The position numbers and the translations under genes are program-made. Positions 1,887 to 26,483 of a stretch of DNA of 33,318 bases are shown here, piece after piece. The stretch's first letter is position 1, and each line of letters starts with the position of its first letter. The DNA is from Candidatus Sumerlaeota bacterium (GTDB lineage Bacteria; Sumerlaeota; Sumerlaeia; JAFGJS01): contig JAFGJS010000152.1 of assembly GCA_016928995.1 (NCBI GenBank), forward strand, positions 1-33,318, given 5' to 3'. The notes beneath the pieces were generated by a model, which saw nothing but the letters and a program-made list of their open reading frames with translations, was not told the DNA's origin and did no database searches.

Positions 1887-4800
1887 ATGAGCATTTACCC
1901 CAAAGAGATTGTGAATCAAGTGCTTGAGCACCTCACGCCAGTGAAAGTGCTTGAATATATCGATTACCGCACGGACACGATTCAAGAGATCAGCGGCGTT
2001 GTGCGCGCGTTTTGCCCGGTGCATCGCGAGACTGTGTTCCGCACCCTCAGCATCGAAAACGGCTCTTTTTTGTGCAAGTATAACTTGTGCCCCGCGGCGG
2101 AAGGCGGCGACCTGATCCAGCTCGTCGCGATCACGAAAGAAGTCGATTATGACGACGCCCTGCGTCTGATCGTGGAAGAATTCGGCATCGACGTGGCGCT
2201 TCCCCCGCCTGCGGAATACATTGAGACCACGCTTGAAGTGGCGGAGAATCTGCTCGAGTTATCCGTGCTTGAGGAGTCCGAGCAGGAATACAAGAAAGTC
2301 CTCGCCATTGAGCCTGACAACATCCGCGCGCTTGAAGGCATGCTTGAAATCCATCGCGAACGCGGAGAGACAACCCGGCTGAGCGAGATCTTGCGCAGCA
2401 CGCTCGCTCATTACATGAAGCAAGGCGACGAGAAGGATGCAGTGGACAAAGCGCTGCATATGGCGCACGAGCTGCTCGACCATCAGCCCAATGATTTTGA
2501 CACGCGCCACCAGATGGCGGAATGCCTGATTCGAGTCGGCCGTTACGAAGAAGCCACGAACGAATTGATGGAACTCGCCGACATGTTCGAAACGAAAGGC
2601 GAATATGAACGGGCGGTGAAGATCTATGAGCGCTTGAAATCCGTGAATTACGCCGCGGTGGACGTGGAGCCGCATCTCGTAAATGCCCTGGCCAGCCAGG
2701 GAGACACGACAGCGGCCGTCGAAGAGGCGCGCAACATGGCCGCCGACGCCCTTCGCGCGAAGAATTATTCCATCGCCCTGGATTGCTACCGGCAGGCTCT
2801 GGAGATCGACGGCTCTCGCAGCGCGCTGCGCGACGAGATGCTCCGGACGGCGCTTGAGGCGGGATTGAATGAATCGCGGCTTCAGGATTGCCTGATGATG
2901 GCGAAGCACTACCTGGATAAGGAGAGTCCGGCCGCGGCCGAGGAGATCGTCAACAGTCTGAAAAACCGCCTGCCGGACGAGCCGAACGTGCTGCGCATGG
3001 AAATCCGCATGCTGCGGCAGACCGGGCAGGACGACCAGGCGAATCTGCGCACAGCGGAACTTGCGAATATCTATGTGAATTCAAACCGTACGCTCAAAGC
3101 GGCGCGGCTCATCCGCGACGCCTTCAATTATGTTGTGAAGTCCGATGTTTCCGCGCCGGAGGCGGCGCTGTCGCAAATGGCCGCCACCGCGGCCAAGATC
3201 GGCGAACATCGCCTTGCGATGCGGATCTTGTTGTTTCAAATCGACGTGCTGCGCCGCAAGCAGGATATTAAACAAGTGGCGACGGTCTATGATCAGCTGA
3301 TCCAGATGGCGCCAGAACGTCCGGAGTTCATCATCGGCGCCATGCAGGCTTTTCTTGAAATCAATGAAAAACAATCCGCGATGAAATATAGCGAGCGCCT
3401 CGTCGCCTGCTATGAGACCGCCCGCGACTGGGTGCCGTTGGCCGATGCTTTGCGCCAGGGACTCAGCCTCGACGACTCCCGTTTCGAATGGCACTATAAA
3501 TTCGCCTGCGTGCTCGACGACCTTGACCAGAAAGACGAAGCCATCGAGCATTATTTAAAGGCCGCGGAAGGCTTCCTGGAAAACGGCTCGCTCAGCACGG
3601 CGCATCAAGCCGTGGACGCCGTGCTGCGATGGCAGCCCAGGCACATCGAAGCATTGTCCCTTGCGGCGGACGTTTACCTTAGCGCCGAGCAGCCCCAGAA
3701 GGCGCTGGAAGCCCTGCGCTCGCTGGCCGCGACGCTGATCGAACGGCAGGAGCATCCCCGCGCGATGGAGACGCTGGAGCGCATCAAGCAATGCGAAAAG
3801 GACGCCGCCCAGTATCTCGAATTGTACGTCGAGCTGTACCGCTCCATGGGCGAGATCGGCAAACTCTGTTCCGCTCTGCGACAATTGGCCGAGGAATTCG
3901 CCCGGCGCGAAGCCTATCCGCGCGCGGTGGAATGCATCACCGAAGCGCTGGACCAATCGCCCGAGGACGAAGAGGCGATCCTCCAGCTGATCCAAATCTT
4001 CGAGGCGACGGACAAGATCGACAGCGCCAACGAGATGCGTCTGCGGCTGGGCGACATTTACCATGGACATGAGCAGTTCGACAAAGAAATCGCGCTGTAT
4101 CGCAAGGCGCTGGAGATCCAGCCTGACGCCATGCCGCTGAATAAACGGCTTGTGCAGGCTCTGGTTGACACGCATCGGGTGGAAGAAGCCGCCAAGGCCG
4201 CCGAACAATTGATCGGGCGCTTCGCTCAAACTCCGCATGCCGCCGGCGCCGTCCAGGCTGTGCAGTCTGTGCTGGAAAACGACGCGGACAACATCGAATT
4301 GCAGAGCAAACTCTGCGATCTCTACGCAAGCAAAGGCATGATGCAGGAATGGAAACGGCAGTGCATGCAGCTGGCGGCGTGTTATGAACGGCGCAATATG
4401 CTGGTGGAACTGGCGGAGGTCTACGAACAACTGACGGCATCCGAGCCGGCCAACGCCGATTACCGGTTAAAACTCATCGAAGTCTATCGCTCGCTCAACC
4501 GCAAGGACGATGAACAGCTCCAGCAGTTGGAACTGGCATCGCAATACGCCGATCGGGGCAACCTCAACGACGCTGCTCAATCTTTGAAGGCCATTTTGGA
4601 GCTCGATCCGGAGAATGAAGAAGCCATGGAGCGATTCGACGCCATCCTCGCGAAAAACGCCGGGCCGGAGGAGCGCATCGCCAATCTATCGCGTCTGGCG
4701 GAAACCTGCCGCGCGCACGGCAAACCGGAGGCTGCGGTCGATGTCTTGCGGCGCATTGTCGCTCTCGATCCGGCAAACACCGCCGCGCGGGAGAAGATCA

Positions 4801-6026
4801 TCGGCCTCTCCAAAGAGCAACAGGTGGCCGATCAGCAAGTCAATGAATACATCGATCTGGCGCAGGAACAGCTGCGGCAACAGCAGCCGGAATCCGCTCT
4901 GGAAAATTTCCGTCGAGCGCTCGAACTTCATTCCGAGCATGAAGAGGCGCGCCGGCAAATGGTGAAGGTTCTGCTGCAATTAGAGCGCAAACAGGAAGCG
5001 CTGGAGCAACTCTGGAAACTTGCAGACCAATACAACGCAGCGGACAAACACGACGATCTGCTGCGCGTGCTGAATGAAATGCTCAGGCTCGATGCGCAGA
5101 ACATCGAAGCGCGTCAACTCAAGGCCGAGACATACGCCAAAACCGGACGCGAGAAGGAGGCGCTGGAGGAGTTCATGCGCATCTCCGGCGAGACCAAGGA
5201 CGCCGGGAAGCCGATTACTCCGCTGGCCGGCATTCGCCGGGAACGCACGCCTTCCGCCGGCTCCGAATATAACCTCGAACAGGCCTTCGAGTCGATGCCT
5301 GTCGTCCCGGAATACACATTTAAAAATTTCATCATCAGCGATAACAACAATTTCGCCAAGAGCACGTGCGAGGCCGTGGCCAAGGCTCCGGCGAAACATT
5401 ATAATCCGGTGTTTCTCTGGAGCGACGTGGGATTGGGCAAAACTCATTTGATCAACGCCATCGCGAACTTCATCCAGGAGCAGAATCCATCCCTCCGTAT
5501 ACATTACACGAACGCGGAGGACTTCACCGGACAGCTCGTGGATGCGATCAGCCACAACAGCCTTACGCTGGTGCGCAACTACTACAAGCAAATCGACGTG
5601 CTGCTGGTGGACGATGTGCATTTCCTCGCCGGGAAGCAAAAGGCGCAGGAGGAGTTTTTCTATATCTTCAATATGCTCTTCCAGGCCAAGAAGCAGATCG
5701 TCGTCACCTGCGACCGGCCGCCAAAAGACATCGAGCACCTGGAAAAAAGGCTGAAGACGCGCTTCGGCGCCGGCGTGATCGTGGATATTCAAACGCCCGA
5801 TCTTGAAACGCGCATTGCGATCCTCCAAAAATCCGCGATGAGTTTTCCCGGAGTCGCCATCGATAAATGGGTGTTTGAAAAAATCGCGGGCGCGCTGGAA
5901 AACAACGTCCGCGAACTCAAAGGCGCCTTCAATCAAACCATGGCTATCTGCACATCCAGCGGGCAGCCGCCGTCCGAAGACTTGGTGGATCGCATCATCG
6001 CACAATTCGGGGACAGCGGCGCATGA
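1887..6026 (+). CDS. CHC2 zinc finger - TPR array - DnaA-type AAA+ fusion protein
   Basis: A 1379-residue cytoplasmic protein with three parts. Residues 1-105 resemble the DnaG primase zinc-binding domain: CPVH at 43-46, Cys63 and Cys68 as further ligands, then EGGDLIQL where DnaG has GGDVIxF. The fourth-ligand spacing is CX4C instead of CX2C. Residues about 110-1130 are a long run of TPR helix pairs (recurring LEIDPDN-like turns). Residues about 1143-1379 are the DnaA domain III ATPase: Walker A SDVGLGKTHL (K1185), Walker B LLVDDVHF (D1242, D1243), the RLKTRFG box and sensor-II NNVREL (R1342). The protein stops where DnaA domain IV (double-stranded DNA binding) would begin. The first Walker A glycine is Ser. 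Known families suggest nucleic-acid contact and ATP-dependent assembly. The function of the fusion is not known to me; it is not the replication initiator DnaA itself. The ribosome site is weak (GGGAG, 16 nt before ATG). Confidence 0.88.
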   Translation: MSIYPKEIVNQVLEHLTPVKVLEYIDYRTDTIQEISGVVRAFCPVHRETVFRTLSIENGSFLCKYNLCPAAEGGDLIQLVAITKEVDYDDALRLIVEEFGIDVALPPPAEYIETTLEVAENLLELSVLEESEQEYKKVLAIEPDNIRALEGMLEIHRERGETTRLSEILRSTLAHYMKQGDEKDAVDKALHMAHELLDHQPNDFDTRHQMAECLIRVGRYEEATNELMELADMFETKGEYERAVKIYERLKSVNYAAVDVEPHLVNALASQGDTTAAVEEARNMAADALRAKNYSIALDCYRQALEIDGSRSALRDEMLRTALEAGLNESRLQDCLMMAKHYLDKESPAAAEEIVNSLKNRLPDEPNVLRMEIRMLRQTGQDDQANLRTAELANIYVNSNRTLKAARLIRDAFNYVVKSDVSAPEAALSQMAATAAKIGEHRLAMRILLFQIDVLRRKQDIKQVATVYDQLIQMAPERPEFIIGAMQAFLEINEKQSAMKYSERLVACYETARDWVPLADALRQGLSLDDSRFEWHYKFACVLDDLDQKDEAIEHYLKAAEGFLENGSLSTAHQAVDAVLRWQPRHIEALSLAADVYLSAEQPQKALEALRSLAATLIERQEHPRAMETLERIKQCEKDAAQYLELYVELYRSMGEIGKLCSALRQLAEEFARREAYPRAVECITEALDQSPEDEEAILQLIQIFEATDKIDSANEMRLRLGDIYHGHEQFDKEIALYRKALEIQPDAMPLNKRLVQALVDTHRVEEAAKAAEQLIGRFAQTPHAAGAVQAVQSVLENDADNIELQSKLCDLYASKGMMQEWKRQCMQLAACYERRNMLVELAEVYEQLTASEPANADYRLKLIEVYRSLNRKDDEQLQQLELASQYADRGNLNDAAQSLKAILELDPENEEAMERFDAILAKNAGPEERIANLSRLAETCRAHGKPEAAVDVLRRIVALDPANTAAREKIIGLSKEQQVADQQVNEYIDLAQEQLRQQQPESALENFRRALELHSEHEEARRQMVKVLLQLERKQEALEQLWKLADQYNAADKHDDLLRVLNEMLRLDAQNIEARQLKAETYAKTGREKEALEEFMRISGETKDAGKPITPLAGIRRERTPSAGSEYNLEQAFESMPVVPEYTFKNFIISDNNNFAKSTCEAVAKAPAKHYNPVFLWSDVGLGKTHLINAIANFIQEQNPSLRIHYTNAEDFTGQLVDAISHNSLTLVRNYYKQIDVLLVDDVHFLAGKQKAQEEFFYIFNMLFQAKKQIVVTCDRPPKDIEHLEKRLKTRFGAGVIVDIQTPDLETRIAILQKSAMSFPGVAIDKWVFEKIAGALENNVRELKGAFNQTMAICTSSGQPPSEDLVDRIIAQFGDSGA

Positions 6027-6054
6027 GTCCCATATGCCCCGCTACGGCACCGCA

Positions 6055-6837
6055 ATGAACCTGATCGAATCCATTCAGACGCTCTTCCGAAATTCACAAT
6101 ACACTCTGGCTACTGCGATCATCGCCGCGCTCGTGCTTGTGCTCGTTGTGATCATCTTCCGCTTACGGAGCAATGCAAAGCGTCGAATGGATCAATCGAG
6201 CGCGCTTTCCCCCGGCGGCATCGATTTCCTTGCCCTGAAAAGCATCGAACGCACGGGGCTTATCAGCCAGGAGGAACTTTCCGCGTTGAAAATGAGAATG
6301 GCGGATGAGTACCTGGACGCCAAACAAACCGGCGAAAAGAAAGGCGGCTCGCGTCTGCCGCTGGAGGTGGAATTGGAACAGGCCGAAACCGAGGCGCGGC
6401 AATTGGCGCAGATCAAACAAAAACGTATAGCCCGCACAGCGCAAGCGGCGGATCCGCTGGAACTCGATAAACCGTCATCGACTCCAGCGCCGCCATCTGG
6501 CGTGGCTTCTGTGCAGCCCTTGCCCGCTGAGCAAGCGGCGCTGTTGCGCAAACATCTGAAGATCGACGAACTTCAGCCTGACGAGGCGCGCCGTTTCCAG
6601 CAGATGGGCGTCATCACCGCGGAAGAAGCCGAAAAAATTCTCTCCTATCCGAAAATCGAGGAGCGCTCCACACAGCCGGATGAAATAAAAACAGATGCAT
6701 CTACAGAGAATTCCACGGTATCGAACGACGATATACAACCCGAATTGCTGACCCTTGAAGAACTGGATCAGCTCTACGAATCCGGCGCGATCAGCGTCGG
6801 CCAATACGAAGCGTGGCGCTGGCGCGTAAAATCCTGA
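6055..6837 (+). CDS. single-pass membrane protein with SHOCT-like helical motifs
   Basis: Unrecognised protein of about 260 residues. It has one hydrophobic segment near residues 17-34 (ATAIIAALVLVLVVIIFRL) followed by basic residues, which predicts a short outside N-terminus and a cytoplasmic body. Three stretches look like SHOCT-type helix-turn-helix pairs: near 60-85 (ERTGLISQEELSALK), near 175-205 (FQQMGVITAEEAEKIL) and the extreme C-terminus (LDQLYESGAISVGQYEAW). A Pro/Ala-rich linker lies between the first two. It starts 28 nt after the CHC2-TPR-AAA+ gene (7 nt if ATG 6034 is used); neither start has a clear ribosome site, so translational coupling is likely. The pairing suggests it may tether or regulate the AAA+ protein at the membrane; that is inference only. 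Confidence 0.75.
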   Translation: MNLIESIQTLFRNSQYTLATAIIAALVLVLVVIIFRLRSNAKRRMDQSSALSPGGIDFLALKSIERTGLISQEELSALKMRMADEYLDAKQTGEKKGGSRLPLEVELEQAETEARQLAQIKQKRIARTAQAADPLELDKPSSTPAPPSGVASVQPLPAEQAALLRKHLKIDELQPDEARRFQQMGVITAEEAEKILSYPKIEERSTQPDEIKTDASTENSTVSNDDIQPELLTLEELDQLYESGAISVGQYEAWRWRVKS

Positions 6838-6861
6838 CAGCATCGCCAAATTGTTTCTTCG

Positions 6862-7683
6862 CTAAAAGTCAAAAATCATCCCGGACGCGCCCTGAATCGC
6901 TCGTTCTCCAAGAGCCTCGCGCAACGCAGTTACAGCCGCATCGCCCGTGCAGTGACAGGGAACAATCATTTCCAACTCGAGCTGTTGCAGCGCCTCAATG
7001 CTTTGCTGCAGTCGTTGATCGCTGGCGTTAACCAGGTGAAAGCCGCCGATGACGGCGCGAAACTTCGAGACGCCGCTCAACCGGCGGATATAGTTCAAGG
7101 TGTTGATCAAGCCGGCATGCGAACAACCCGCGCAAACGACCACGCCATCATCCGTGTGAATCCAAAGCGCGAGATCATCCTCGATGGGATCGGCGTTTTT
7201 TCCAGCCGGATCAAGGAAGAATGGACCGCCGGTATCCTCATAAGCTGTCTCGCGCGGGACAGGGCCGGTGATGCCGAGACTATCAGATGGCGGCAATGGT
7301 TCTTGAATCCAGTGAAGCCGTTGCGCAGGCAATTGATTGATGGCGTCCAGACATGCGGGCGGAATTTGAATCGGCTCAGCAATTTCATCCCGAATGCTAT
7401 AGCGCCGCACCCCGATTCCCGGATGGCAATACACGTCTGCGTTCGGTGCTTGTTGAAGGACGTGAGGGATCGCTCCCGTGTGATCAAAATGTCCATGGCT
7501 CAACACGAGCAGATCAGTGCGGCTCAAGTCGACGCCCAGTGCTCGCGCGTTATGCTCCAACGCACTTCCTTGCCCCGTGTCGAATAGGATGCATTGATCC
7601 CCGATCTCGATCCATAACGAGAGGCCATGCTCCGCCACAAGCCCTTCGCCGGCGTGATTGTCGACCAAGATTATGATCTTCAT
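6862..7683 (-). CDS. MBL-fold metallohydrolase (COG1237 type)
   Basis: Metallo-beta-lactamase-fold hydrolase of 273 aa. The metal site motif HGHFDH follows LLVLS near residues 62-68. Further ligands are likely in CAGCSHAGLIN near 180-190 and GGFHL near 214-218, with a late histidine in VPCHCTG near 240. This form belongs to the COG1237 group, which includes the archaeal enzyme proposed to make dihydropterin ribofuranosyl aminobenzene phosphate; that specific activity should not be assumed here. The ATG is preceded by AAAGGAGG at 11 nt. It is the last gene of the NifX-like operon, 56 nt after its neighbour, and ends 24 nt from the convergent gene ending at 6837. Confidence 0.9.
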   Translation of the reverse strand: MKIIILVDNHAGEGLVAEHGLSLWIEIGDQCILFDTGQGSALEHNARALGVDLSRTDLLVLSHGHFDHTGAIPHVLQQAPNADVYCHPGIGVRRYSIRDEIAEPIQIPPACLDAINQLPAQRLHWIQEPLPPSDSLGITGPVPRETAYEDTGGPFFLDPAGKNADPIEDDLALWIHTDDGVVVCAGCSHAGLINTLNYIRRLSGVSKFRAVIGGFHLVNASDQRLQQSIEALQQLELEMIVPCHCTGDAAVTALREALGERAIQGASGMIFDF

Positions 7684-7739
7684 CGATAAAAAATCCTCCT
7701 TTGAAAGACGCAGTATAGCGACGCATGATCAAGACGTCA

Positions 7740-8078
7740 TTAGTGATCGCAAACGTTATCTCCGGTCTGGAGCGATCCGGCGAGATAACCGGCGGCCAGA
7801 CGCTCCGGAGTTTCCGAAGGCGCGCCGACGACGACTTGGATGCCTTGTTGCGCAAACAACGCCACGGCCCGCTGACCGATGCCGCCTGCGATGATCATGT
7901 TCGCGCCCCGTTCCGCCAGCCACGGCGGCAACAAACCCGGAGCATGCGGAGGCGCCTCGATCTCTTCCTGCTTCAGAATTTTTTTTGTTTCCACGTCAAC
8001 ATCGACAAGAGCGAACTTCTCGCAGTGTCCGAAGTGCATGGAGAGTTTTCCGTTCGCCAATGGTATTGCGATCCTCAT
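7740..8078 (-). CDS. NifX/MTH1175-like dinitrogenase cofactor family protein
   Basis: Small (112 aa) single-domain member of the dinitrogenase iron-molybdenum cofactor-binding superfamily (NifX, NifY, C-terminal NifB, MTH1175, ORP). The N-terminus MRIAIPLANGKLSMHFGHCEK is the typical opening strand and HFGHC loop. The end ...GDNVCDH is also family-typical. These proteins are small RNase H-like folds that carry or shuttle metal-sulfur clusters; many members occur in anaerobes that do not fix nitrogen. The start is fixed by AAAGGAG 6 nt upstream. It sits 11 nt after the DUF89 gene. No nitrogenase gene is present in the window, so a role in nitrogen fixation is not supported. Confidence 0.93.
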   Translation of the reverse strand: MRIAIPLANGKLSMHFGHCEKFALVDVDVETKKILKQEEIEAPPHAPGLLPPWLAERGANMIIAGGIGQRAVALFAQQGIQVVVGAPSETPERLAAGYLAGSLQTGDNVCDH

Positions 8079-8089
8079 AGCGTTCTCCT

Positions 8090-8974
8090 TTATAGTATCA
8101 TTTGCTTCTCATCCTTGAATCCAGCAGCCGATTGCATCAATAGATTCATCCCCAACGGCGCGGAGACATGTTCCGCGACGACAGGACACTTCACCTTAAA
8201 GAGGAAAAAAATTCTGGCCGGCACGTCGCTCAGCGTTTCGTAGTTGCCCTGGCCCTTGGCAATAATCAAATCCGCCTCCGCGAAACGCCGTTTGAACTCC
8301 GGACTACAATCGTCCAGCAACGTGCCCGGAGCGTCCGAACCGTTGTCGATGAGCTCCACGATTTCATGAAGTCCGACCGCTCGCGCATCCGCCAGAGTCG
8401 CGTCATTGAGGACCGGCGCGCCGCGCACGGCCACGATCACGCGCTCCGGCGAAAGCTGCTCGATGAGCAGGCGGTCAAAGGCGATTTCGCCCGCGTTGTC
8501 GGCCAGGTATAAAATCCGGCGGGCATTCGCCGCCGCCTGACGAAACAAATCTTCATCGCCCATGAATGACTCATGCAGAACTTGATGGATCGCCTCGCGC
8601 ACATGGGCTTCGGTGACGTTGCCGTTCACGCCCATGTCGATCACGTTTCCGGCAATGGCTAACCGCGCCGCCATCGCCAGCGGATCCGCCGCAGCCTGAA
8701 CCTCGGCCCTCAGTTCATCAAGCAAGCGCATCGCCATGCTATTCTGACGTTCCTTCGCTTCGCGATACAGGTCATCCGAACCGATTATCTCGCGCAGCCG
8801 GCGATGAAGACGCTGCCCCACAATAGGCGCCGGCTGGTTCATGTCCAACTCGCAGGCCCAGCGCAATGCTTCGCGTAGAACCTGTTCATGCACGGCGGGA
8901 TCCGTTGACACGAGCCGGGCGGCGTTCAAGGCCTGGCGGATAAAACAGGGAATGCAGTCGAGATATGTTTTCAT
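8090..8974 (-). CDS. DUF89 / ARMT1-like damage-control phosphatase
   Basis: 294-aa member of the DUF89 metal-dependent phosphatase family. Seen: CIPCFIRQAL near residues 8-17, LYLADNAGEIAFD near 150-162 (metal and phosphate binding Asp-Asn) and IIAKGQGNYETLSD near 240-253. The known family removes phosphate from harmful or side-product phosphometabolites such as sugar phosphates; human ARMT1 belongs to it. Prokaryotic members with the N-terminal CxxC form a distinct subgroup often found beside NifX-like genes in anaerobes. The ATG overlaps the TrmO stop by 4 nt (ATGA), so the two are translationally coupled. The substrate is not known. Confidence 0.92.
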   Translation of the reverse strand: MKTYLDCIPCFIRQALNAARLVSTDPAVHEQVLREALRWACELDMNQPAPIVGQRLHRRLREIIGSDDLYREAKERQNSMAMRLLDELRAEVQAAADPLAMAARLAIAGNVIDMGVNGNVTEAHVREAIHQVLHESFMGDEDLFRQAAANARRILYLADNAGEIAFDRLLIEQLSPERVIVAVRGAPVLNDATLADARAVGLHEIVELIDNGSDAPGTLLDDCSPEFKRRFAEADLIIAKGQGNYETLSDVPARIFFLFKVKCPVVAEHVSAPLGMNLLMQSAAGFKDEKQMIL

Positions 8975-9462
8975 TCTCCATACTCACGCAAGCCGCGCCG
9001 CTGTGCGGTTTCGTCGTCCACATCATCCTGCCAGCCGTTGCGCGCCGTTTCAAAGACGTCGAATTTCGCCGTGTATGGCTTGAGATCCAGCAACGGCGTG
9101 CCATCGAGAATATCAACACCGTCAAGATAAAGCACATTGCCATCGCGGCGGATCAATTCAACCACGCTCAGCCCGATGGCATTGGGACGGCAAGGAGCGC
9201 GAGTGGAGAACAACCCGCGCTCAACGTCCTGCAGAAACGGCTTCACGACAAGTTTCGCGGCCTCAGCCTGGTGGAAGTGATAAATTAAATAGATATGCGA
9301 AAATCCCTCCAGATCGCGCAAACCTTCCGCGTATTCCGGAAACACTTCCACTCGGCCTTTGCAGCCCATGGCATAAACCGGCTGGATCGGCGTTTGCCGC
9401 GCGATCTGATGATCGCTGTGAATTACGCCGATCGGCGTGAAGCTAATACTGGATTCACTCAT
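8971..9462 (-). CDS. trmO: TrmO-like tRNA t6A37 N6-methyltransferase (TsaA domain)
   Basis: 163-aa TrmO/TsaA-fold protein. Known members use S-adenosylmethionine to methylate N6-threonylcarbamoyladenosine at position 37 of certain tRNAs. Seen: TPIGVIHSD at the start, DLEGFSHIYLIYHFHQA near 60-76, STRAPCRPNAIGLSVVEL near 100-117 and VDILDGTPLLDLKPY near 130-145, all family hallmarks. A longer open frame runs upstream, but ATG 9462 overlaps the preceding stop as ATGA and yields the normal N-terminus. E. coli TrmO is longer; this short single-domain form is common in archaea and anaerobes. Its place inside a metal-cofactor operon is frequent in such genomes but unexplained, and its role there may differ from tRNA methylation. 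Confidence 0.9.
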   Translation of the reverse strand: MSESSISFTPIGVIHSDHQIARQTPIQPVYAMGCKGRVEVFPEYAEGLRDLEGFSHIYLIYHFHQAEAAKLVVKPFLQDVERGLFSTRAPCRPNAIGLSVVELIRRDGNVLYLDGVDILDGTPLLDLKPYTAKFDVFETARNGWQDDVDDETAQRRGLREYGE

Positions 9463-9821
9463 ACCCAATGCCCTTCGACGTCCGACGCCTTGGCCTCGTT
9501 TAATGCTCCCGCGCGGAATTGATCGAGCGCCGCGGCCACTGTCCCCGCGCTGGCGGTGTAGATCTCGATGCCTGCGGCTTGCAGTACACGAAACGCCTTG
9601 GGGCCGCAATGCCCGGTGACAACGGCCTGCGCTCCCAGCCGAGCCACGGTTTCCGCGGACTGAATGCCGGCGCCCTGGACCGCGTTCAGGTTCTGCTGAT
9701 TGTCCGCCACTTCAAAGGTCTCGCGCTCCAGATCGTAGATCAGAAATTTCGGAGCACGGCCGAAGCGGACGTCCAAATCCGCATCAAGATTATCACCCGC
9801 AGTAGTAAAAGCAACTTTCAC
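9459..9821 (-). CDS. NifX/MTH1175-like cofactor-binding protein
   Basis: 120-aa second member of the dinitrogenase cofactor family in this operon. It opens MKVAFTTAGDNLDADLDVRFGRA, the form typical of MTH1175 and orange-protein relatives, and contains AVVTGHCGPKAF near 70-80. The start is GTG, 7 nt after AGGAG, and the stop overlaps the TrmO start. Known ORP of Desulfovibrio holds a mixed Mo-Cu sulfide cluster; whether this one does cannot be told from sequence. The paralogue at 7740-8078 differs strongly, so the two likely have separate partners or cargo. Confidence 0.92.
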   Translation of the reverse strand: MKVAFTTAGDNLDADLDVRFGRAPKFLIYDLERETFEVADNQQNLNAVQGAGIQSAETVARLGAQAVVTGHCGPKAFRVLQAAGIEIYTASAGTVAAALDQFRAGALNEAKASDVEGHWV

Positions 9822-9842
9822 TTTTCATCTCCTTGTCTGTGA

Positions 9843-10220
9843 TTATTCCTCAGCCGTCCCGGTTTCCATCTCGGCAAGGCGTTTCTGAATCAATTCCAGT
9901 TCCGACTGCAACGCGTCGGCCTGGTTCTTTAACGCCTGTTTTTCCATTTCCGGATCCATGCTTGGTGTCGCCATCGGCGCGGCGTATCCGCCGCCGAACC
10001 GCATCCACCCCGGCATGCCTGTCGCGCGGAACATGTTCCGCCATCCCCGGCCTCCTCCTCCGCCTCCGGCAAAGCCCCGGCCGCGTCCGAATCCCATTCC
10101 ACGGCCTTGACCCGGCGCTTGATTCATAGATCCCGGCGCGCCGAAGCCGGCGCAATATCCGGCGGCGCGGCCGCTCTTCGGTCCCGCCCCCATTGGTCCT
10201 GTTCGATCTCCTCTTGGCAT
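9843..10220 (-). CDS. DUF5320 family glycine-rich protein
   Basis: 125-aa protein that opens MPRGDRTGPMGAGP, then a long Gly/Arg-rich tract (FGRGRGFAGG, GGRGWRN) and ends in a coiled-coil segment near 90-118 (QALKNQADALQSELELIQKRL). This is the DUF5320 layout, widely found next to NifX-like genes in anaerobes. The function is unknown; the coiled coil suggests self-association. The start is set by AAAGGAG 9 nt upstream. It lies 27 nt after the zinc-ribbon gene and 21 nt before the GTG-start NifX gene, in the middle of the operon. Confidence 0.9.
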   Translation of the reverse strand: MPRGDRTGPMGAGPKSGRAAGYCAGFGAPGSMNQAPGQGRGMGFGRGRGFAGGGGGGRGWRNMFRATGMPGWMRFGGGYAAPMATPSMDPEMEKQALKNQADALQSELELIQKRLAEMETGTAEE

Positions 10221-10247
10221 GATTGTATGCTCCTTTCTGATTGATGA

Positions 10248-10442
10248 TTATTCTCGAATCATGGCGCATCCACACTTCGGGCATTGCCGCTCCACGCATG
10301 GCATGCCCCGTTCATGCGGCGTCTTTTGTCCGCATTTTGGACAGACGCAGCTGCCTCCGGCGCCCGTTTGTTGCGAGCCGCCCATGCGGCCGCGTCCCTG
10401 ACCGCCTCGGCCTTTTCCGCCGCCGCGTCCTCCTTGATTCAT
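10248..10442 (-). CDS. possible internally started zinc-ribbon protein (64 aa)
   Basis: Inside the fused gene, in the same frame, ATG 10442 is preceded by a perfect AGGAGG (10456-10451) at 8-nt spacing. Translation from there would give a free 64-aa protein: [11 protein letters not shown], Gly-rich tract, then the four-CxxC-like zinc ribbon (CPKCG...CPKCG). Stand-alone proteins of this shape are familiar beside DUF5320 genes. Both the long and short products could therefore be made from one message. The internal site may instead be a relic of two once-separate genes. Confidence 0.45.
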
Positions 10443-10820
10443 CGCTTCATCCTCCTGACGATTGCCGCATCGGCGCCGCCGTCTTCCGCAACATCCCGGC
10501 ATGGCAAATACATCCCGTTCCAGCTTTCCCTGAAGCCACGCCTGAATAACGTCGCGCAACTCGCCAGTCACAAACGGGATCACCTCGATTCCATATGCGG
10601 CGACCAAGCCCTGCATGGATCTGGAAATCGCGCCGCAAACCAAAACGCCGGCGCCCAGTTCCACGAGCCGGAGCGCCTTCTGAACCGGCAATTCTTCCGG
10701 CAGCGTTTCTTGCGTTTCACGGACAATCCGGCCAGCGTCGGCTTCGACGAGATGAATTTGCTGCGCGGTGTCGAAGACCGGAGCGATTCGATGCTGCCAA
10801 GATGCAAATGCGGTTTTCAT
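10248..10820 (-). CDS. NifX-like domain fused to a Gly-rich zinc ribbon
   Basis: First gene of the operon, 190 aa. Residues 1-115 are a NifX-like domain ([31 protein letters not shown], then [11 protein letters not shown]). A Gly/Arg-rich linker follows and residues about 155-190 form a zinc ribbon: [26 protein letters not shown] 10820 is chosen because AGGA lies 8 nt upstream and the -24/-12 promoter ends about 35 nt before it; the open frame extending to 10955 would begin upstream of the promoter. In related genomes the NifX part and the Gly-rich zinc ribbon are usually separate small proteins, so this looks like a fusion. A second start inside it is listed separately. Confidence 0.88.
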
Positions 10821-10854
10821 AGTGTGAATCCTGCCATGATACACCACATCAATA

Positions 10855-10871
10855 AGCAAAAGCGGCGCCAA
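10855..10871 (-). promoter_or_regulatory. sigma-54 (-24/-12) promoter of the NifX-like operon
   Basis: On the minus strand the sequence is TTGGCGCCGCTTTTGCT. It has the invariant GG and GC dinucleotides exactly 10 nt apart (consensus TGGCAC-N5-TTGCW, one mismatch in the -24 box). It sits about 35 nt before ATG 10820, which leaves a leader of roughly 20-25 nt. A gene for a sigma-54 activator lies immediately upstream, which supports function. Confidence 0.85.
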
Positions 10872-10950
10872 ACTCCATTTTTTTGTGAAAACGTCAAAAA
10901 TCATTGTAAATAATAGAGATAGGTGCGAAGTAAACCGATCACAATAGGGA

Positions 10951-10970
10951 TGCATCGTTGCAATATCGCA
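10951..10970. promoter_or_regulatory. candidate upstream activator site
   Basis: Imperfect dyad TGCATCGTTGCAATATCGCA centred on TTGCAA, about 80-100 bp upstream of the -24 box, the usual distance for a sigma-54 activator site. The outer TGC/GCA and the core are symmetric; the rest is not. Only one copy was seen, so this is a suggestion. Confidence 0.35.
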
Positions 10971-11001
10971 GTTTTAGGTCGATTTTATAGTTGCGGATTC
11001 G

Positions 11002-12390
11002 CTACTCTTTTCGCTTGCGGTGAGTGCGTCCATCCTGTTGCGGTAGGGGGATGTTCAGTTTCTTCATCTTGCGGAAAAGCGTTGTTTTATGAATGCCCAA
11101 TTCGCGCGCCGCCGCGAGCCGGTTGAAACCGTTCCGTTCGAGCGCGGCGCGGATGGTCTGGGCGTCGAGAATCTCGTGAGCCGAGCGGATATCGGAATTC
11201 GCTCTGGCCGCCGCGCCATTCGCCGTCAGTTCCCACGGCAGATGCGCCATGCCGATCTCGCCATCGCCGCAGAGCAGGAAGGCCCGTTCAATCGCATTTT
11301 CCAATTCGCGGATGTTGCCCGGCCAATCATAAGCCATCAGCAGCGACAAGGCCTCGGCGGAGACGCCTTGGATCGATTTGCACATCAACCGGTTGAACCG
11401 GGCGATGAACTGATCGGCCAGCAGCGGAATGTCCTCTTTGCGCCGACGCAACGGCGGCAGTTCGATACGCACAACATTGACGCGGTAGTACAGATCCTCC
11501 CGAAATTTTCCTTTCCGCATCTCTTCCGCCAGATCCTTGTTCGTGGCTACGATGAAGCGAACGTCGGCAGGTTCGGAGCGTGTGCCGCCCAACGGTTCAT
11601 AAACCCGTTCCTGCAACACGCGGAGCAAGCGAACCTGAAGCGCCGGACTCACGTCGCCGATTTCATCGAGGAGGATCGCGCCGCCATTGGCCAGGGCGAA
11701 GCGCCCCGGTTTGTCTTTTTCCGCGCCGGTGAAGGCGCCGGCTTTATAACCGAACAATTCCGATTCCAGCAAGTTATCAGGCAAGGCGCCGCAGTTCACC
11801 GCGACAAACGGCCCTTTGTTGCGGGGGCTTAGCGCATGGATTGTGCGCGCGACCATTTCCTTGCCGGTTCCTGTTTCGCCGAGGATCAGCACCGTGCTGG
11901 GGCTTGCCGCGATGGTGGGCAAAATATCGAAAACCCGCTGCATCAGTGGACTCCGGCTGGCCAGGTCGCCCACATGAAACTTCCCCTCCAATTCCTGACG
12001 CAGCTCTTCGATCTCGGAAAGATCGCGAAAGGTTTCGGCGCCGCCAATCACCCGGTCTTCGCTATCGCGCAACACAGCCGTGGAAATACTGATCGGAATG
12101 CGATTCCCGTCGGCGTCGATGATGTATCCCGATTTTCCGATGATCGGCTTGCCGGTTTGCAGGGTTTGCTCAAGCGCGCACGCGGCTCCGCACATGCTGG
12201 AACGGAACACGTCCGCGCAATGCCGGCCGATCGCTTCCGCACGCGGCACACCCGTGATTTCTTCGGCCGCTCGATTGAAGGACGTGACGCGCCATTCCCG
12301 GTCCACCGTGAAAACTCCGTCCGAGATGCTTTCTAGAATCGCATCCGTCAGCATCGAGTCCATTGGCGATTTTTTTTTACTGCCGCTCAT
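11002..12390 (-). CDS. PAS-containing sigma-54-dependent transcriptional activator
   Basis: NtrC-family enhancer-binding protein of 462 aa. The N-terminal PAS domain (about 12-125) carries three cysteines in RHCADVF and SSMCGAACAL (C58, C67, C71). The central AAA+ domain (about 140-375) has Walker A GETGTGKE, the sigma-54 contact loop GAFTGA and Walker B ILLDEIGD. The C-terminal Fis-type helix-turn-helix is NRLAAARELGIHKTTLFRKM. ATG 12390 follows GGAGG closely and gives MSGSKKK; ATG 12363 is an alternative. It lies immediately upstream of the operon with the -24/-12 promoter and is its probable cognate activator, as DVU2106 is for the Desulfovibrio orange-protein operons. No receiver domain, so it is not phosphorelay-controlled; the PAS domain probably senses redox or a ligand. 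Confidence 0.95.
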   Translation of the reverse strand: MSGSKKKSPMDSMLTDAILESISDGVFTVDREWRVTSFNRAAEEITGVPRAEAIGRHCADVFRSSMCGAACALEQTLQTGKPIIGKSGYIIDADGNRIPISISTAVLRDSEDRVIGGAETFRDLSEIEELRQELEGKFHVGDLASRSPLMQRVFDILPTIAASPSTVLILGETGTGKEMVARTIHALSPRNKGPFVAVNCGALPDNLLESELFGYKAGAFTGAEKDKPGRFALANGGAILLDEIGDVSPALQVRLLRVLQERVYEPLGGTRSEPADVRFIVATNKDLAEEMRKGKFREDLYYRVNVVRIELPPLRRRKEDIPLLADQFIARFNRLMCKSIQGVSAEALSLLMAYDWPGNIRELENAIERAFLLCGDGEIGMAHLPWELTANGAAARANSDIRSAHEILDAQTIRAALERNGFNRLAAARELGIHKTTLFRKMKKLNIPLPQQDGRTHRKRKE

Positions 12391-12661: not shown

Positions 12662-13309
12662 TCAGGATTGCATCGGAGTCGTTATCCCTCGCAAAGCGGG
12701 ATCGAGGCAGTGCTGCGTCTGGCATGGCTGCTTCACGATGCATTGGGCGCCCATTTCGCGCAGTCTCGTCTGAATCTGCTCGAATTGCTCATCGGATGTC
12801 AGCTGTGGATGAACCGTAACGCGAAACTGGCAGGATACGCCGCTGCCGATGACCAAGGCGGCGCTTTCCCATGCCGCCGCGCCGCTCGCGGCCGAACCAG
12901 TGATCGCCGGGTAATCTTCCGGCAAGGCTTTGACATCCAGCCCCACCCAATCGGCGAGCTTCAGCGCTGTGGCAAGTCTGTCGGGGAAGGCGCCCGATGT
13001 GTGCAAGCCGATTTTATAACCCATATCCCGCATTAACGACATGGCCGGAATCAAGGCGGGCTGGAGCGTCGGCTCTCCTCCTGAAAAAACAACCGCGTCG
13101 AGCAAGCCCTGGCGTTGCTGAAGGATGGATACGATCTTTTCCCAGGAATGTGAGGATTGTCCCTCGCGGGGCAAAAGGTCTTCATTATGACAATAACGGC
13201 ATCGCCAGGGGCAGCCCTGACAAAAAATCACGGCGGCCAGTTCGCCGGGGTAATCGATGGTGGTCAGCGGAGTAAAACCGCCTACGCGCAATTCATCCAC
13301 CGCTCTCAT
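12662..13309 (-). CDS. nrdG: anaerobic ribonucleotide reductase activating protein (radical SAM)
   Basis: Radical-SAM activase, 215 aa, that uses a [4Fe-4S] cluster and S-adenosylmethionine to place the glycyl radical on NrdD. The cluster motif is CPWRCRYC near residues 33-40, followed by HNEDLLP; VVFSGGEPTLQ near 72-82 is the SAM-binding GGE motif. ATG 13309 overlaps the NrdD stop as TGATG and follows GGAGG by 4 nt, so it is preferred over the TTG one codon upstream. The C-terminal CQTQHCLDP is an extra Cys pair typical of the longer class of NrdD activases. Confidence 0.95.
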   Translation of the reverse strand: MRAVDELRVGGFTPLTTIDYPGELAAVIFCQGCPWRCRYCHNEDLLPREGQSSHSWEKIVSILQQRQGLLDAVVFSGGEPTLQPALIPAMSLMRDMGYKIGLHTSGAFPDRLATALKLADWVGLDVKALPEDYPAITGSAASGAAAWESAALVIGSGVSCQFRVTVHPQLTSDEQFEQIQTRLREMGAQCIVKQPCQTQHCLDPALRGITTPMQS

Positions 13310-15510
13310 CAAACCTCCGCAGGCTCATGGAAATATTTCCGTTCGCGATGCTCCGCTTGCTTGCCCTGGTTCCAGGCCGCAACGGGACGATGGTAGCCCA
13401 TGACGCGCGTCCAGACCTCGCAACGCACGCGCGACTCTTCGCCCGAACTCTCTCCGGCCAGTTCGGTGTCGCATTTGGGGCAGTACTCATGCTCGCCGTT
13501 CAGGTAGCCGTGCACCGGGCAAATCGAGAACGTCGGTGTGATGGTGATGTAGGGCAGGCGGTAATTCGTCAGCGCGCGCTGAACCATCCGCTTGCAGGCC
13601 TCGCCGCTGGAGATGCGCTCGCCCATGTACAGATGCAGCACGGTGCCGCCGGTGTATTTCGACTGCAGCTCCTCCTGGCGTTCGAGCGCCTCGAAGGGAT
13701 CGTCGGTGAATCCAGCCGGCAGCTGCGACGAATTGGTGTAATACGGCGCGTCCCCGGTTCCGGCCTGGATGATGTCCGGGAAACGCTTGCGGTCCTCGCG
13801 CGCGAAGCGATAAGTCGTGCCCTCGGCGGGCGTCGCTTCGAGGTTGTACATGTGTCCGGTGGCTTCCTGAAATCCGGCCATCTTTTCGCGGATGTGGTCG
13901 AGAAAACGCACGGCGAAGGCGCGGCCCTGCTCCGTGGCGATGTCCTCGCTCCCATCCGTGAAGTTCATGATCGCCTCGTTGATCCCGTTGACGCCGATCG
14001 TCGAGAAGTGATTGCGCATCGTCCCCAGGTAACGCTTGGTGTAGGGGAACAACCCGGCGTCGATGTGCCGCTGGATGACCTTGCGTTTGATTTCGAGGCT
14101 GTCGCGGCCCAAATCCAGCAGGCGGTCGAGCGTCCGGAACAGTCCGGCTTCGTCGCCCTTGTGCAGATATCCCAGCCGGGCGCAATTGATCGTCACCACG
14201 CCCAGCGAACCGGTCTGCTCGGCAGAACCGAACAAGCCATTGCCGCGCTTGAGCAGCTCGCGCAGGTCGAGCTGCAGCCGGCAGCACATCGAGCGCACCA
14301 TGTTCGGCTTGAGCTCCGAGTTGACGAAGTTCTGAAAATACGGCAGGCCATATTTGGCGGTCATTTCGAACAGCAGCCGCGCGTTCTCGCTCTCCCAGGG
14401 AAAATCCGGCGTGATATTATAAGTCGGGATCGGGAAGGTGAAAACCCGGCCCATCGCGTCGCCAGCAGTCATGACCTCGATGTAGGCGCGGTTGATCAGG
14501 TCCATCTCCGCCTGCAAATCGCCGTACGTGAAATCCATCTCCTTGCCCGCGATGATCGGTTTATCGTCGCGCAGGTCTTCGGGGCAAACCCAGTCGAAGG
14601 TCAGATTGGTGAAGGGCGTTTGCGTGCCCCAGCGCGAGGGGACGTTCAGGTTATAAATCAGTTCCTGAATGCATTGACGCACCTTCTCGTAGTCGAGGTT
14701 GTCGATGCGCACGTAAGGGGCCATGTAGGTGTCGAAGGAACTGAAAGCCTGCGCTCCGGCCCATTCGTTCTGCAGCGTGCCGAGAAAATTAACAATCTGT
14801 CCGACGGCGCTCGACATGTGCTTGGCTGGCGCGGCTTCGACCTTGCCGGGCACGCCGTTAAGTCCTTCGTGCAGCAGCGTGCGCAACGACCAGCCTGCGC
14901 AATAGCCGGAGAGCATGTCGAGATCATGAATGTGGATGTCGCCCTGTCGATGCGCCTCGCCGACTTCGGGCGGGTAGACGTGGTTGAGCCAGTAATTGGC
15001 GATGAGCTTGCCCGAGCTGTTCAGGATCAATCCGCCAAGCGAGTAGCCCTGATTGGCGTTGGCCGAGACGCGCCAGTCGGCCCGGTCGAGATACTCGTTG
15101 ACCGCCTGCGAGACATCGACCAGCGTCCGGCGATCCTCGCGCAAGCGGCTGTGCTGTTCGCGGTAGACGATATAGGCGCGGGCGGTGCGGAGATGGTTGG
15201 CGCTGATCAGCACCTGCTCGACGATGTTCTGGATGCGCTCAATCTCGGGCGATCCGATGCCGGTCCAGGCCAACACCTTCAAGACCTGGCCGGTCAGCAG
15301 GACGGCTTCAGGCTGATCGTACTCGCCGGTCGAGCGCCCTGCTTTCAGGATCGCGTTCTGGATGCGTTCGGCGTCGAACGGCGCCAGCGATCCATCGCGC
15401 TTGCGGACGGTGTCCGGCAACGCATATTTCAACGCATCGGGAGTGGAACTCTCGTCATTGTTTTCCATGTCGAGAAGTTCTGAATTGCTATCGAAGGAAT
15501 CAAGTTTCAT
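13309..15510 (-). CDS. nrdD: anaerobic ribonucleoside-triphosphate reductase (class III)
   Basis: Class III ribonucleotide reductase, 733 aa; reduces ribonucleoside triphosphates to deoxynucleotides without oxygen. Residues about 35-125 are an ATP-cone allosteric domain (VRKRDGSLAPFDAERIQNAI). The body shows HIHDLDMLSGYCAGWSL, NLTFDWVCP, FPIPTYNI and FSTIGVNGINEA. Near the C-terminus is the zinc site CPVHGYLNGEHEYCPKC and the radical loop TRVMGYHRP with the glycyl radical residue at Gly705. ATG 15510 follows AGGAGAA by about 7 nt. Transcription begins about 330 nt upstream and passes through a cobalamin riboswitch, so expression is probably shut down when B12 is plentiful. Coupled to nrdG. 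Confidence 0.97.
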   Translation of the reverse strand: MKLDSFDSNSELLDMENNDESSTPDALKYALPDTVRKRDGSLAPFDAERIQNAILKAGRSTGEYDQPEAVLLTGQVLKVLAWTGIGSPEIERIQNIVEQVLISANHLRTARAYIVYREQHSRLREDRRTLVDVSQAVNEYLDRADWRVSANANQGYSLGGLILNSSGKLIANYWLNHVYPPEVGEAHRQGDIHIHDLDMLSGYCAGWSLRTLLHEGLNGVPGKVEAAPAKHMSSAVGQIVNFLGTLQNEWAGAQAFSSFDTYMAPYVRIDNLDYEKVRQCIQELIYNLNVPSRWGTQTPFTNLTFDWVCPEDLRDDKPIIAGKEMDFTYGDLQAEMDLINRAYIEVMTAGDAMGRVFTFPIPTYNITPDFPWESENARLLFEMTAKYGLPYFQNFVNSELKPNMVRSMCCRLQLDLRELLKRGNGLFGSAEQTGSLGVVTINCARLGYLHKGDEAGLFRTLDRLLDLGRDSLEIKRKVIQRHIDAGLFPYTKRYLGTMRNHFSTIGVNGINEAIMNFTDGSEDIATEQGRAFAVRFLDHIREKMAGFQEATGHMYNLEATPAEGTTYRFAREDRKRFPDIIQAGTGDAPYYTNSSQLPAGFTDDPFEALERQEELQSKYTGGTVLHLYMGERISSGEACKRMVQRALTNYRLPYITITPTFSICPVHGYLNGEHEYCPKCDTELAGESSGEESRVRCEVWTRVMGYHRPVAAWNQGKQAEHRERKYFHEPAEV

Positions 15511-17305: not shown

Positions 17306-18802
17306 TTATGAATTCGGCATTGGTCGAATGAGATGGATCGTCACATTATCAAATTGCGCCTGGCAGAGTACGCCATCATGAACACTGCATACCGCCAGGC
17401 CGGCATATACACTATCCGAAAAAGATATGGTTCGCGAGCCGATCATTTTCCATTGACTAGCATCTGCTGAACAAAACGCTGTCAACTGATTTCCTTTGCG
17501 TTCCAGCCGCACCCAATATGGCGCGCGGCCTTCTGGCGCCTCCGCGATTCCATTGGCTTGAACGCCTGGCGAACTGCGTTGTTGGAAGGCGGTCCCATGC
17601 TCCGGTGAGACAAAGCATAAGGCATATTTCGATTGCGCATCGAGGTTTTCACGAATCATCACCCCTGCTTTTGCCCAGGGGGCGGTATTTCGCAAATTCA
17701 ACACCCGAGCCGTAATCGAGAAATCACCGCTTGTTGTTTGGTAAACGAACCTGAAATCATCGCTTGTGTTCCAGATATCGCTCCCTGATCCTTCAATGGT
17801 GAACACTTCGCCCGCTTTTAAGAATGAACCTGGCGCGCCGGCAGCGCCGATGTCCGAGGTGAGCCAATCCATCGTTAATGATATATCGACGTTGTCGAAT
17901 TCAGCCTGACAGATCACTCCATCATTAACGCTGCATACGGCAAGTCCGGCATACAAGGTTTTCGTCATGGGGATATTTCGAGCGCCCAGATTCAACCATT
18001 GGCTTCCGTCCGAGGAGCAGGCTGCGGTGATCATGTCGTCCTTGCGGGATAGACGCAGCCAGCAAGGCGCGCGCCATCCTGCTTTACCCGCTATTTCCGA
18101 GGCCTCTTGGCCTGTGGCGCCGCGTTGTTGAAAAGAGATGCCACGCCTCGGCGACACAAAACAGAGAGCATATTTCGACTGCGCATCAAGCGTCTCGCGG
18201 ATCATAATTCCGGCTTTGGCCCAAGGCGCCGTGTCGCGCATCGTGCGCACTCGCACCGTCAGCGTGAAATCGCCATGCAATGTTTTGTAGACATACCGGA
18301 ACTCATCCGATGAGTTCCATATGTCGCTGCCCGATCCCTCGATAGTTAAACTGTGATTGAATTCCTTGAATGACCCTACGGCGCCTACTGCGCCGATGTC
18401 CGATGTGAGCCAAGGCGCGCTGGAAAGGTCCATCAACGCACCCGAAGCAGCTATTGAGTCCGGCGACTTCCCTGTGATGTCTTCGGCCCATACTTTATAA
18501 TGATACCATATGCCGGCCGCTGCGGATGCATCCGTGTATGTCTTGGCGTAAATCTTCGTCGCAATCGTTTCATAAGGGCCGTCAATATTCATCGCACGCT
18601 TAATCCCAAAGGCAGCTGTGCTGGCCGGATGGTCCCATTGCAAAACCATCTTGCCGGCGCTGGTGGATGTAGTCAAATGATCAGGCGGTGAAAGCGGCAG
18701 TTGTTTCTGGGGAGGATTACAGGCGATGAAAGCGATGATGATAATCCATGGCCATCGCCGAAACTGATGAAGCGTCCATCGTCGTGTTGATTTACCGCAC
18801 AT
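17306..18802 (-). CDS. lipoprotein with FN3-like domain and two DUF1349-like modules
   Basis: Predicted surface lipoprotein, about 498 aa from ATG 18802. A basic N-terminus and hydrophobic run end in IAFIAC, a lipobox with Cys28. Residues about 35-126 look like fibronectin type III (MVLQWDHP, GPYETIATKIYAKTYTD, WYHYKVWAED). Two modules of about 180 aa follow (129-308 and 311-498). Each contains W(L)TSDIGA, GSGSDIWN, APWAKAGxMIRE, SKYALCFVSP and YAGLAVCSV, the DUF1349 / concanavalin A-like 'regulation of enolase 1' type, which probably binds carbohydrate. No catalytic domain. The start is uncertain: the open frame reaches 18928, but a TACAAT -10-like box at 18920-18915 argues for a start below about 18900. 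Probably a cell-surface glycan-binding partner of the neighbouring fucosidases. Confidence 0.82.
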   Translation of the reverse strand: MCGKSTRRWTLHQFRRWPWIIIIAFIACNPPQKQLPLSPPDHLTTSTSAGKMVLQWDHPASTAAFGIKRAMNIDGPYETIATKIYAKTYTDASAAAGIWYHYKVWAEDITGKSPDSIAASGALMDLSSAPWLTSDIGAVGAVGSFKEFNHSLTIEGSGSDIWNSSDEFRYVYKTLHGDFTLTVRVRTMRDTAPWAKAGIMIRETLDAQSKYALCFVSPRRGISFQQRGATGQEASEIAGKAGWRAPCWLRLSRKDDMITAACSSDGSQWLNLGARNIPMTKTLYAGLAVCSVNDGVICQAEFDNVDISLTMDWLTSDIGAAGAPGSFLKAGEVFTIEGSGSDIWNTSDDFRFVYQTTSGDFSITARVLNLRNTAPWAKAGVMIRENLDAQSKYALCFVSPEHGTAFQQRSSPGVQANGIAEAPEGRAPYWVRLERKGNQLTAFCSADASQWKMIGSRTISFSDSVYAGLAVCSVHDGVLCQAQFDNVTIHLIRPMPNS

Positions 18803-18950
18803 CTTGTCTTCTCTTATTCGCATTCGCCCATTACGATCAAGCGTTCGCCATAACTTCATTAGCGCTCTGCGTCGCGGCCTTTTATTATAAGTAATATGAG
18901 AGCGCCTTTTATTAATTGTATCGGCCAAATTGTCCTACAAATTAATTTTT

Positions 18951-19013
18951 TTAGAACAAATATCTTCCAATCGAAAAATTAGTTTTGTCTTCAGTGAAAT
19001 TCATCATTGTCAT
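18951..19013 (-). CDS. possible 20-aa small protein or leader peptide
   Basis: ATG 19013 follows AGGAG (19024-19020) at exactly 6 nt and opens a frame MTMMNFTEDKTNFSIGRYLF then TAA. It lies in an AT-rich gap between the thioredoxin-fold gene and the lipoprotein gene, 148 nt upstream of the latter. The ribosome site is among the best in the window, but no family is recognised and chance cannot be excluded. Confidence 0.35.
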   Translation of the reverse strand: MTMMNFTEDKTNFSIGRYLF

Positions 19014-19174
19014 TGCTATCTCCTGGAATATTGATTCGGAAATTCTCTGAATATTTCCCTAAAAAAAGATTAATCTCATTCTTTTACGCAATCTGAAATT
19101 CAGGATTGAGCCTCTTCCAACGCCTTGCGGAACAACGGAATAGAAATAAAATTCGCAGGCGAGGCCGCTGAAAA

Positions 19175-20872: not shown

Positions 20873-20975
20873 CTTCGCTTTTTTCAATCATTCCGTGGGG
20901 GAGCGCTTGAAAGTTGAATCCGGGCAATATCCTATTCGGATCTTTTTCGTATTTATCTTGCTGCGACAGAGCGGT

Positions 20976-23597: not shown

Positions 23598-23640
23598 CTT
23601 ACCCCTCCAATTGAACCCGGATTCAACTCCCAAGCATTGT

Positions 23641-24675: not shown

Positions 24676-24704
24676 AAATAGACTCCAGTGGCTTGAATGA
24701 ATAA

Positions 24705-26263: not shown

Positions 26264-26338
26264 TGAATCAACTCCTCTTGGATGACGATTAAAATCCGGC
26301 TGAATTTAAATTGAGCAACTTGCAATGAAGCGCCGTTT

Positions 26339-26473: not shown

Positions 26474-26483
26474 GATTGAGAGT

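Follow-up and report, generated by a model that had tools for sequence, protein, structure and literature searches.

The window analysed here, a stretch of 33,318 nucleotides (contig JAFGJS010000152.1 of assembly GCA_016928995.1) from a Candidatus Sumerlaeota bacterium, contains at positions 1887-6026 of the forward strand a single uninterrupted frame of 1379 codons, which encodes a protein of 1379 amino acids (aa) in which a DnaG-type zinc ribbon (ZnR), a long array of tetratricopeptide repeats (TPR), and an AAA+ module corresponding to domain III of the replication initiator DnaA, here DnaA(III), follow one another. An original prediction, made from the letters of the window without database searches, had proposed that these three elements are combined in one protein, and Pfam, a sequence profile, predicted structures, and orthologs confirm the combination. 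The host genome of this ZnR-TPR-DnaA(III) fusion gene is a 4.5-Mb draft that is 92% complete. The fusion gene and the partner gene that follows it comprise these features:

1887..6026, forward strand: ZnR-TPR-DnaA(III) fusion protein, 1379 aa; open frame, with orthologs in the same frame in 27 of 40 genomes of the phylum
1887..2207, forward strand: DnaG-type zinc ribbon, residues 1-107, ligands C43, H46, C63, and C68; PDB profile, and model compared with 2AU3
2211..5213, forward strand: TPR solenoid, residues ~109-1109; Pfam TPR families, with helical hairpins in both predicted models
5202..5270, forward strand: low-confidence linker between TPR and AAA+, residues ~1106-1128; predicted local distance difference test score (pLDDT) below 50 (model residues 206-228)
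5301..6011, forward strand: DnaA domain III (AAA+), residues ~1139-1375; Pfam, sequence and structure comparison
6034..6837, forward strand: partner gene, 267 aa, one N-terminal transmembrane (TM) segment followed by SHOCT-like motifs; neighbour of the fusion gene

Architecture and distribution of the fusion protein

The domain order of the fusion protein is far beyond chance. Zinc ribbon and domain III lie within the same uninterrupted frame in 27 of 40 Sumerlaeota genomes, representing 13 families (comparison of reported frames), and the DnaA(III) part of the fusion was found in 35 of the 40; many of the remaining copies are on short contigs and are apparently cut by contig ends. An assembly error joining two genes, which the original prediction had named as a possible source of this frame, is ruled out by the recurrence of the frame in 27 genomes. 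In one genome that is 92% complete (G027) neither the zinc-ribbon nor the domain-III end was seen, and in the sole genome of another class (G039), which showed no DnaA(III) fusion, the ZnR-TPR frame runs off the contig. Nearly all relatives in named genomes belong to Candidatus Sumerlaeota (BRC1), and the distribution of the fusion is that of a core protein of the phylum, not a patchy one.

Many Pfam TPR models match the central region far above their cut-offs, and a period of ~36-37 aa gives an estimate of ~27-28 helical hairpins for the solenoid; the 1021 aa that separate the zinc ribbon from the AAA+ module agree with the roughly 1000 residues of TPR originally proposed. Array length is 999-1021 aa in 12 of 20 orthologs and 1049, 1070, 1288, 1388, 1396, 1779, 1780, and 537 aa in the remaining eight, and this near-constant length suggests a TPR solenoid of set geometry. 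Separately, the ortholog in G019 (L133) is split into two overlapping frames of 536 and 1750 aa, probably through an assembly frameshift or a real disruption.

The N-terminal zinc ribbon

The CHC2 zinc finger scores below the Pfam cut-off in the fusion protein (14.5 bits vs. 24.9) and above it in one short ZnR paralog. A profile built from 18 orthologous N-termini and compared with 177,635 PDB sequences at E<=10 returned two matches only, both of them DnaG primases (2AU3, E 0.073; 1D0Q, E 0.099) whose first zinc ligands align with those of the profile; in 386 genomes, the same profile also found frames of 570-650 aa, i.e., of DnaG length, in many lineages. The AlphaFold model of residues 1-240 has a mean pLDDT of 95, and its residues 5-107 superpose on the zinc-binding domain of the Aquifex primase 2AU3 (Z 11.2, rmsd 2.7, 94 residues). 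Foldseek alone, used with residues 1-240, was swamped by TPR proteins; the primase match emerged from a second aligner and from the sequence profile. Because the profile matches only DnaG in the PDB and the model superposes on 2AU3, the N-terminus is a genuine DnaG-type zinc ribbon despite its sub-cut-off Pfam score.

The zinc pattern of the window protein is C43-x2-H46-x16-C63-x4-C68, so that the second knuckle reads CxxxxC where DnaG has CxxC. All four ligands are invariant across 18 aligned orthologs outside family f13; in the two f13 orthologs examined (L068 and L069), CPxC is kept at the first knuckle, and the histidine and the second knuckle are lost. The host genome contains a separate strong match to the DnaG zinc ribbon in a frame of 637 aa.

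The DnaA-type AAA+ module

Pfam places Bac_DnaA at residues 1141-1300 (E 1.7e-59; 201 bits, cut-off 23), and the best solved relative is domain III of Bacillus subtilis DnaA (8BV3; sequence E 1.6e-65; TM-score 0.87 on the target), to which the module is 45-46% identical over 233-237 columns. It is also the best-conserved part of the protein, with ~51-60% identity to orthologs as compared to 26-34% over the whole length. As originally proposed, the protein stops before domain IV: domain III runs to residue ~1375, the chain ends ~4 aa later, and Pfam (25 of 33 families listed) gave no match to domain IV (Bac_DnaA_C), to domain I (DnaA_N), or to a TOPRIM/RNA polymerase domain. Neither of two NCBIfam equivalog models was reached, the scores being 287.5 vs. 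a cut-off of 343.9 for DnaA (TIGR00362) and 79.7 vs. 194.8 for Hda (TIGR03420).

The catalytic residues of the window protein are the Walker A lysine K1185, Walker B D1242/D1243, sensor 1 D1276, box VII R1288, the arginine finger R1292, and sensor 2 R1342. In E. coli DnaA numbering, all 24 domain-III copies compared have the lysine of Walker A, the two aspartates of Walker B, the aspartate of sensor 1, R281, the arginine finger R285, and R334 of sensor 2; one copy has N in place of the T that follows the Walker A lysine. In DnaA, an intact arginine finger and intact Walker motifs imply ATP-dependent head-to-tail oligomers, and because both are intact here, such oligomers are predicted for the fusion protein as well. 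The positions with which DnaA contacts single-stranded DNA (ssDNA) are also kept, K243 in 23 and R245 in 21 of the 24 copies, with K at the R245 position in the window protein itself. E. coli Hda, by contrast, has the Walker A lysine, R281, K243, and R245 all replaced; K243/R245 are changed in several domain-III fusions of other lineages.

A separate dnaA, for which the original prediction had suggested a search, is present in the host genome (521-aa frame), and besides its product only the fusion protein matches Bac_DnaA strongly there; a third, weak match (L003) is DnaC/IstB-like rather than Hda. In a tree of 82 domain-III sequences, the bootstrap of which was not fully settled, the fusion copies group in one clade (100/99), apart from a second one of Sumerlaeota DnaA (100/100), and forcing the two together costs 33 log units (approximately unbiased [AU] test, p = 0.067). 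Since the clades lie apart but the AU test gives p = 0.067, descent of the fusion AAA+ from the phylum's own DnaA through recent duplication is disfavoured, short of exclusion.

Because the ssDNA-contact residues are retained, we keep open two roles close to replication. According to the first, the fusion protein would be a membrane-tethered regulator of DnaA, with domain III capping or joining ATP-DnaA oligomers and controlling their ATP state; it would thus be a large, envelope-linked counterpart of Hda whose TPR arm and zinc ribbon sense a different signal. A domain III without domain IV is indeed the layout of Hda, the arginine finger and the tested interface residues are kept, and the fusion is the only strong Bac_DnaA protein beside DnaA in the host genome, where the weak third match is not Hda. 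We regard this role as the main alternative to the scaffold reading presented below, but as rather unlikely: the Hda and DnaA models stay below their cut-offs, a protein of 1400-2100 aa with a membrane partner is not needed for such a task, related domain-III fusions elsewhere bear signalling or MshEN domains, and no beta-clamp-binding motif is conserved in the linker before the AAA+ module, where a loose pattern applied to the linker only gave one chance-like match among 24 linkers. An Hda-like clamp tether was rejected on the last of these grounds.

The second role, that of a primosome-type nucleic-acid machine in which the zinc ribbon would contact ssDNA or primase while domain III would form a coat on ssDNA and assist in helicase loading or fork restart, would account for the homology of the ribbon to DnaG as well as for the K243/R245 positions. 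It seems improbable, given that the two f13 orthologs lost zinc ligands and retained the rest of the protein, that the second knuckle is altered to CxxxxC, that the listed Pfam families include neither a TOPRIM nor a DNA-binding domain, that a separate DnaC/DnaI-like ATPase exists, and that no replication genes were recognised near the fusion gene.

Partner gene and neighbourhood

The start codon of the partner gene lies 7 bp past the stop of the fusion gene. Its SHOCT-like motifs score below the Pfam cut-off in the window protein and above it in a homolog (L050). A profile built from seven such downstream neighbours (A5) detected homologs in 34 of 40 genomes, each with a single copy except G026, which has two pieces; in 18 genomes, from seven families (f1, f4, f6, f8, f10, f13, and f14), the homolog is directly downstream of the fusion gene. 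In families f8 and f13, the partner is followed by a gene of ~685 aa with a hydrophobic N-terminus and without a significant Pfam match, which is followed in two f13 loci by a further gene (DUF374 in the one tested). The upstream gene is nadC-like by sequence in seven loci, a metabolic neighbour identified by reading of the alignment.

Elsewhere in the window, at positions 17306-33204 of the reverse strand, two alpha-L-fucosidases and several DUF1349 proteins are encoded close to one another, together with a ricin-lectin/PA14 protein; these genes probably serve fucose degradation. A gene for an anaerobic ribonucleotide reductase (NRDD) lies at 13309-15510 of the reverse strand, and the frame of 718 codons opposite to it (13327-15483, forward strand) is probably an artefact of coding composition.

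Paralogs and related fusions

Sumerlaeota genomes encode further ZnR proteins, namely ZnR-TPR proteins of 480-600 aa, giant ZnR-TPR proteins of 2600-3100 aa, and short ZnR proteins of 130-180 aa. In 5/5 loci examined, the giant form is preceded by a homologous protein that has a TM segment and, in the two members tested, SPOR domains. The same kind of pairing was found in the host genome (L187) and in two genomes from outside the phylum, G304 and G167. The host locus (L187:5214-19901, C112) contains a giant ZnR-TPR frame of more than 3700 aa with a SPOR-domain protein before it. In a UBP4-labelled genome outside the phylum, a ZnR-TPR gene adjoins a histidine kinase gene and a response-regulator/Hpt gene, and in another lineage a short ZnR protein is encoded beside a histidine kinase. 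In G076 and G221, also outside the phylum, genes for V-type ATPase and TPR proteins come before the ZnR-TPR gene and an AAA_22 ATPase gene comes after it, followed in G076 by two MshEN-T2SSE motors; G221 agrees with G076 in the lengths and the order of the genes. The contexts of short ZnR paralogs in Sumerlaeota are mixed and uninformative (GcpE, RND efflux, and UbiD beside a ZnR-TPR gene of ~500 aa).

Domain III has been joined to other modules as well. Twelve Bac_DnaA matches in G187, a genome of another lineage, including MshEN-DnaA(III) and receiver-DnaA(III) proteins, form an expanded, apparently undescribed family (loci L154:310-3261, 4695-5924, and 5943-11924, and L157-L161), one member of which is an MshEN-DnaA(III)...DnaA(III) protein of 1993 aa. 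In secretion ATPases, domains of the MshEN type bind c-di-GMP. G304 (L191:4340-5899) and G167 (L192:4205-5728) encode MshEN-DnaA(III) proteins of 507-519 aa without domain IV, and both genomes have ZnR-TPR and MshEN-DnaA(III) as separate genes; G167 has a second, MshEN-only gene just upstream (L192:3513-4085). Other arrangements include proteins of ~700 aa with two tandem copies of domain III in G143 (L129 and L156) and, in G062 (L155:1512-6752), a protein of 1746 aa both ends of which consist of a diverged domain III. Literature searches on MshEN-DnaA fusions yielded nothing relevant, and no published account of the MshEN- and receiver-DnaA(III) proteins was found.

Sumerlaeota also show a marked expansion of T2SSE-type (PilB/GspE) ATPases, with 6 to 21 per genome at E<=1e-30 among the matches listed. 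This number, the ZnR-TPR gene that lies among many T2SSE genes in G076 and G221, and the MshEN-DnaA(III) fusions of other lineages would fit an ATPase that positions or assembles type IV pili or secretion systems, an analogue of SgmX/ExeA-type factors and a more specific form of the scaffold reading presented below. We consider this specific function distinctly improbable, since the SgmX model scores 45.9 vs. a cut-off of 1800 and since, among the matches listed, no T2SSE gene lies near the fusion gene in G004.

Interpretation

From the domain order, the conservation, the intact active-site residues, the folds of both ends, and the linkage of the partner gene, we arrive at the reading, with a probability of about 45%, that the fusion protein is a phylum-specific core, membrane-linked, ATP-switched scaffold that uses a DnaA-type oligomerising module and is not an origin initiator. 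In the mechanism that we infer, the AAA+ module would bind ATP and oligomerise head to tail via its arginine finger, as DnaA domain III does, possibly on single-stranded nucleic acid. From each subunit a long TPR arm would extend, tipped by a zinc-ribbon adaptor; ATP-driven oligomerisation would thus gather many client-binding arms at one place, and the downstream single-TM SHOCT protein would bind the assembly and anchor it at the inner membrane. The clients and the pathway would then belong to membrane or envelope assembly or to signalling rather than to origin firing.

The term scaffold ATPase, used in the original prediction, fits the data, because the AAA+ site is intact in 24/24 copies and is carried on a TPR solenoid of near-constant length; the membrane link is proposed because of the membrane partner and because of the envelope and signalling contexts of the paralogs. 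A link of this scaffold to nucleic acid, proposed at the same time, may exist in view of the retained K243/R245 positions and the DnaG homology of the zinc ribbon. The suggested role in replication fared less well, in that the conserved partner is a membrane protein, paralogs lie beside envelope and signalling genes, and zinc ligands were lost in two f13 orthologs. A phage response, likewise suggested, finds no support in the core rather than patchy distribution, and a phage or defence system was rejected in the absence of a PADLOC match for the fusion protein and four neighbours; a scan of viral contigs with the fusion N-terminus found no relative.

Several observations weigh against a membrane-linked scaffold. 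In the profile search of 40 genomes, the partner gene was unlinked in 16 and not found in 6. SHOCT and TPR are generic domains. In the complete genome G004, more than 200 kb separate the fusion gene from even the closest of the listed T2SSE genes, so that a pilus link is not evident within the phylum. The positions equivalent to K243 and R245 (23/24 and 21/24 copies) are ssDNA contacts of DnaA that a pure protein-assembly ATPase would not need.

DnaA domain III is usually associated only with replication initiators and with small proteins related to them (Hda and DnaC). The phylum-wide giant protein keeps the tested catalytic residues, has a TPR solenoid and a primase-type zinc ribbon in place of the DNA-binding domain, and pairs with a membrane protein; it suggests a second use for the DnaA ATPase module, in which an ATPase of replication was apparently remodelled as a membrane-linked scaffold. 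We tentatively propose that a whole phylum may employ the DnaA filament module outside replication, as an assembly ATPase tethered to the membrane. If this is true, DnaA-type oligomers would be a general building principle used in several lineages, with TPR/zinc ribbon, MshEN, and receiver fusions as its forms. The fusion provides a system in which it can be tested whether DnaA-type filaments can organise anything besides an origin, and the comparison has brought to light scattered, apparently undescribed DnaA(III) fusion proteins in other lineages.

Comparison with known systems

The original prediction knew of no characterised protein with this order of domains, and our searches of the open literature likewise turned up no description of it; a paper on the phylum does not mention DnaA, TPR, or zinc (PMC8092238). 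The individual parts do have known counterparts. The fusion protein shares with DnaA the fold of domain III and its catalytic and arginine-finger residues, whereas domain I and domain IV (the latter for DnaA-box binding) are replaced by ~1000 aa of TPR and a zinc ribbon, and a separate dnaA exists. Hda likewise has a DnaA-type AAA+ module with nothing after it; by contrast to Hda, the fusion protein keeps the Walker A lysine and the ssDNA-contact positions, lacks a clamp motif, and scores below the Hda cut-off. With the zinc-binding domain of DnaG primase, the ribbon shares the fold and the order of zinc ligands, but it has a CxxxxC knuckle, is joined to TPR rather than to an RNA polymerase domain, and coexists with a separate DnaG-type match. 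The TPR scaffolds MamA and SgmX resemble the fusion protein in their TPR solenoid, with weak generic matches, and differ in that their models cover no ATPase or zinc ribbon and score far below the cut-offs. Further counterparts are the MshEN- and receiver-DnaA(III) proteins of G187, G304, and G167, in which domain III is also cut from domain IV and joined to another module; their N-terminal modules differ, however, with neither zinc ribbon nor TPR in the same protein. The ZnR-TPR-DnaA(III) architecture is a new, phylum-wide variant.

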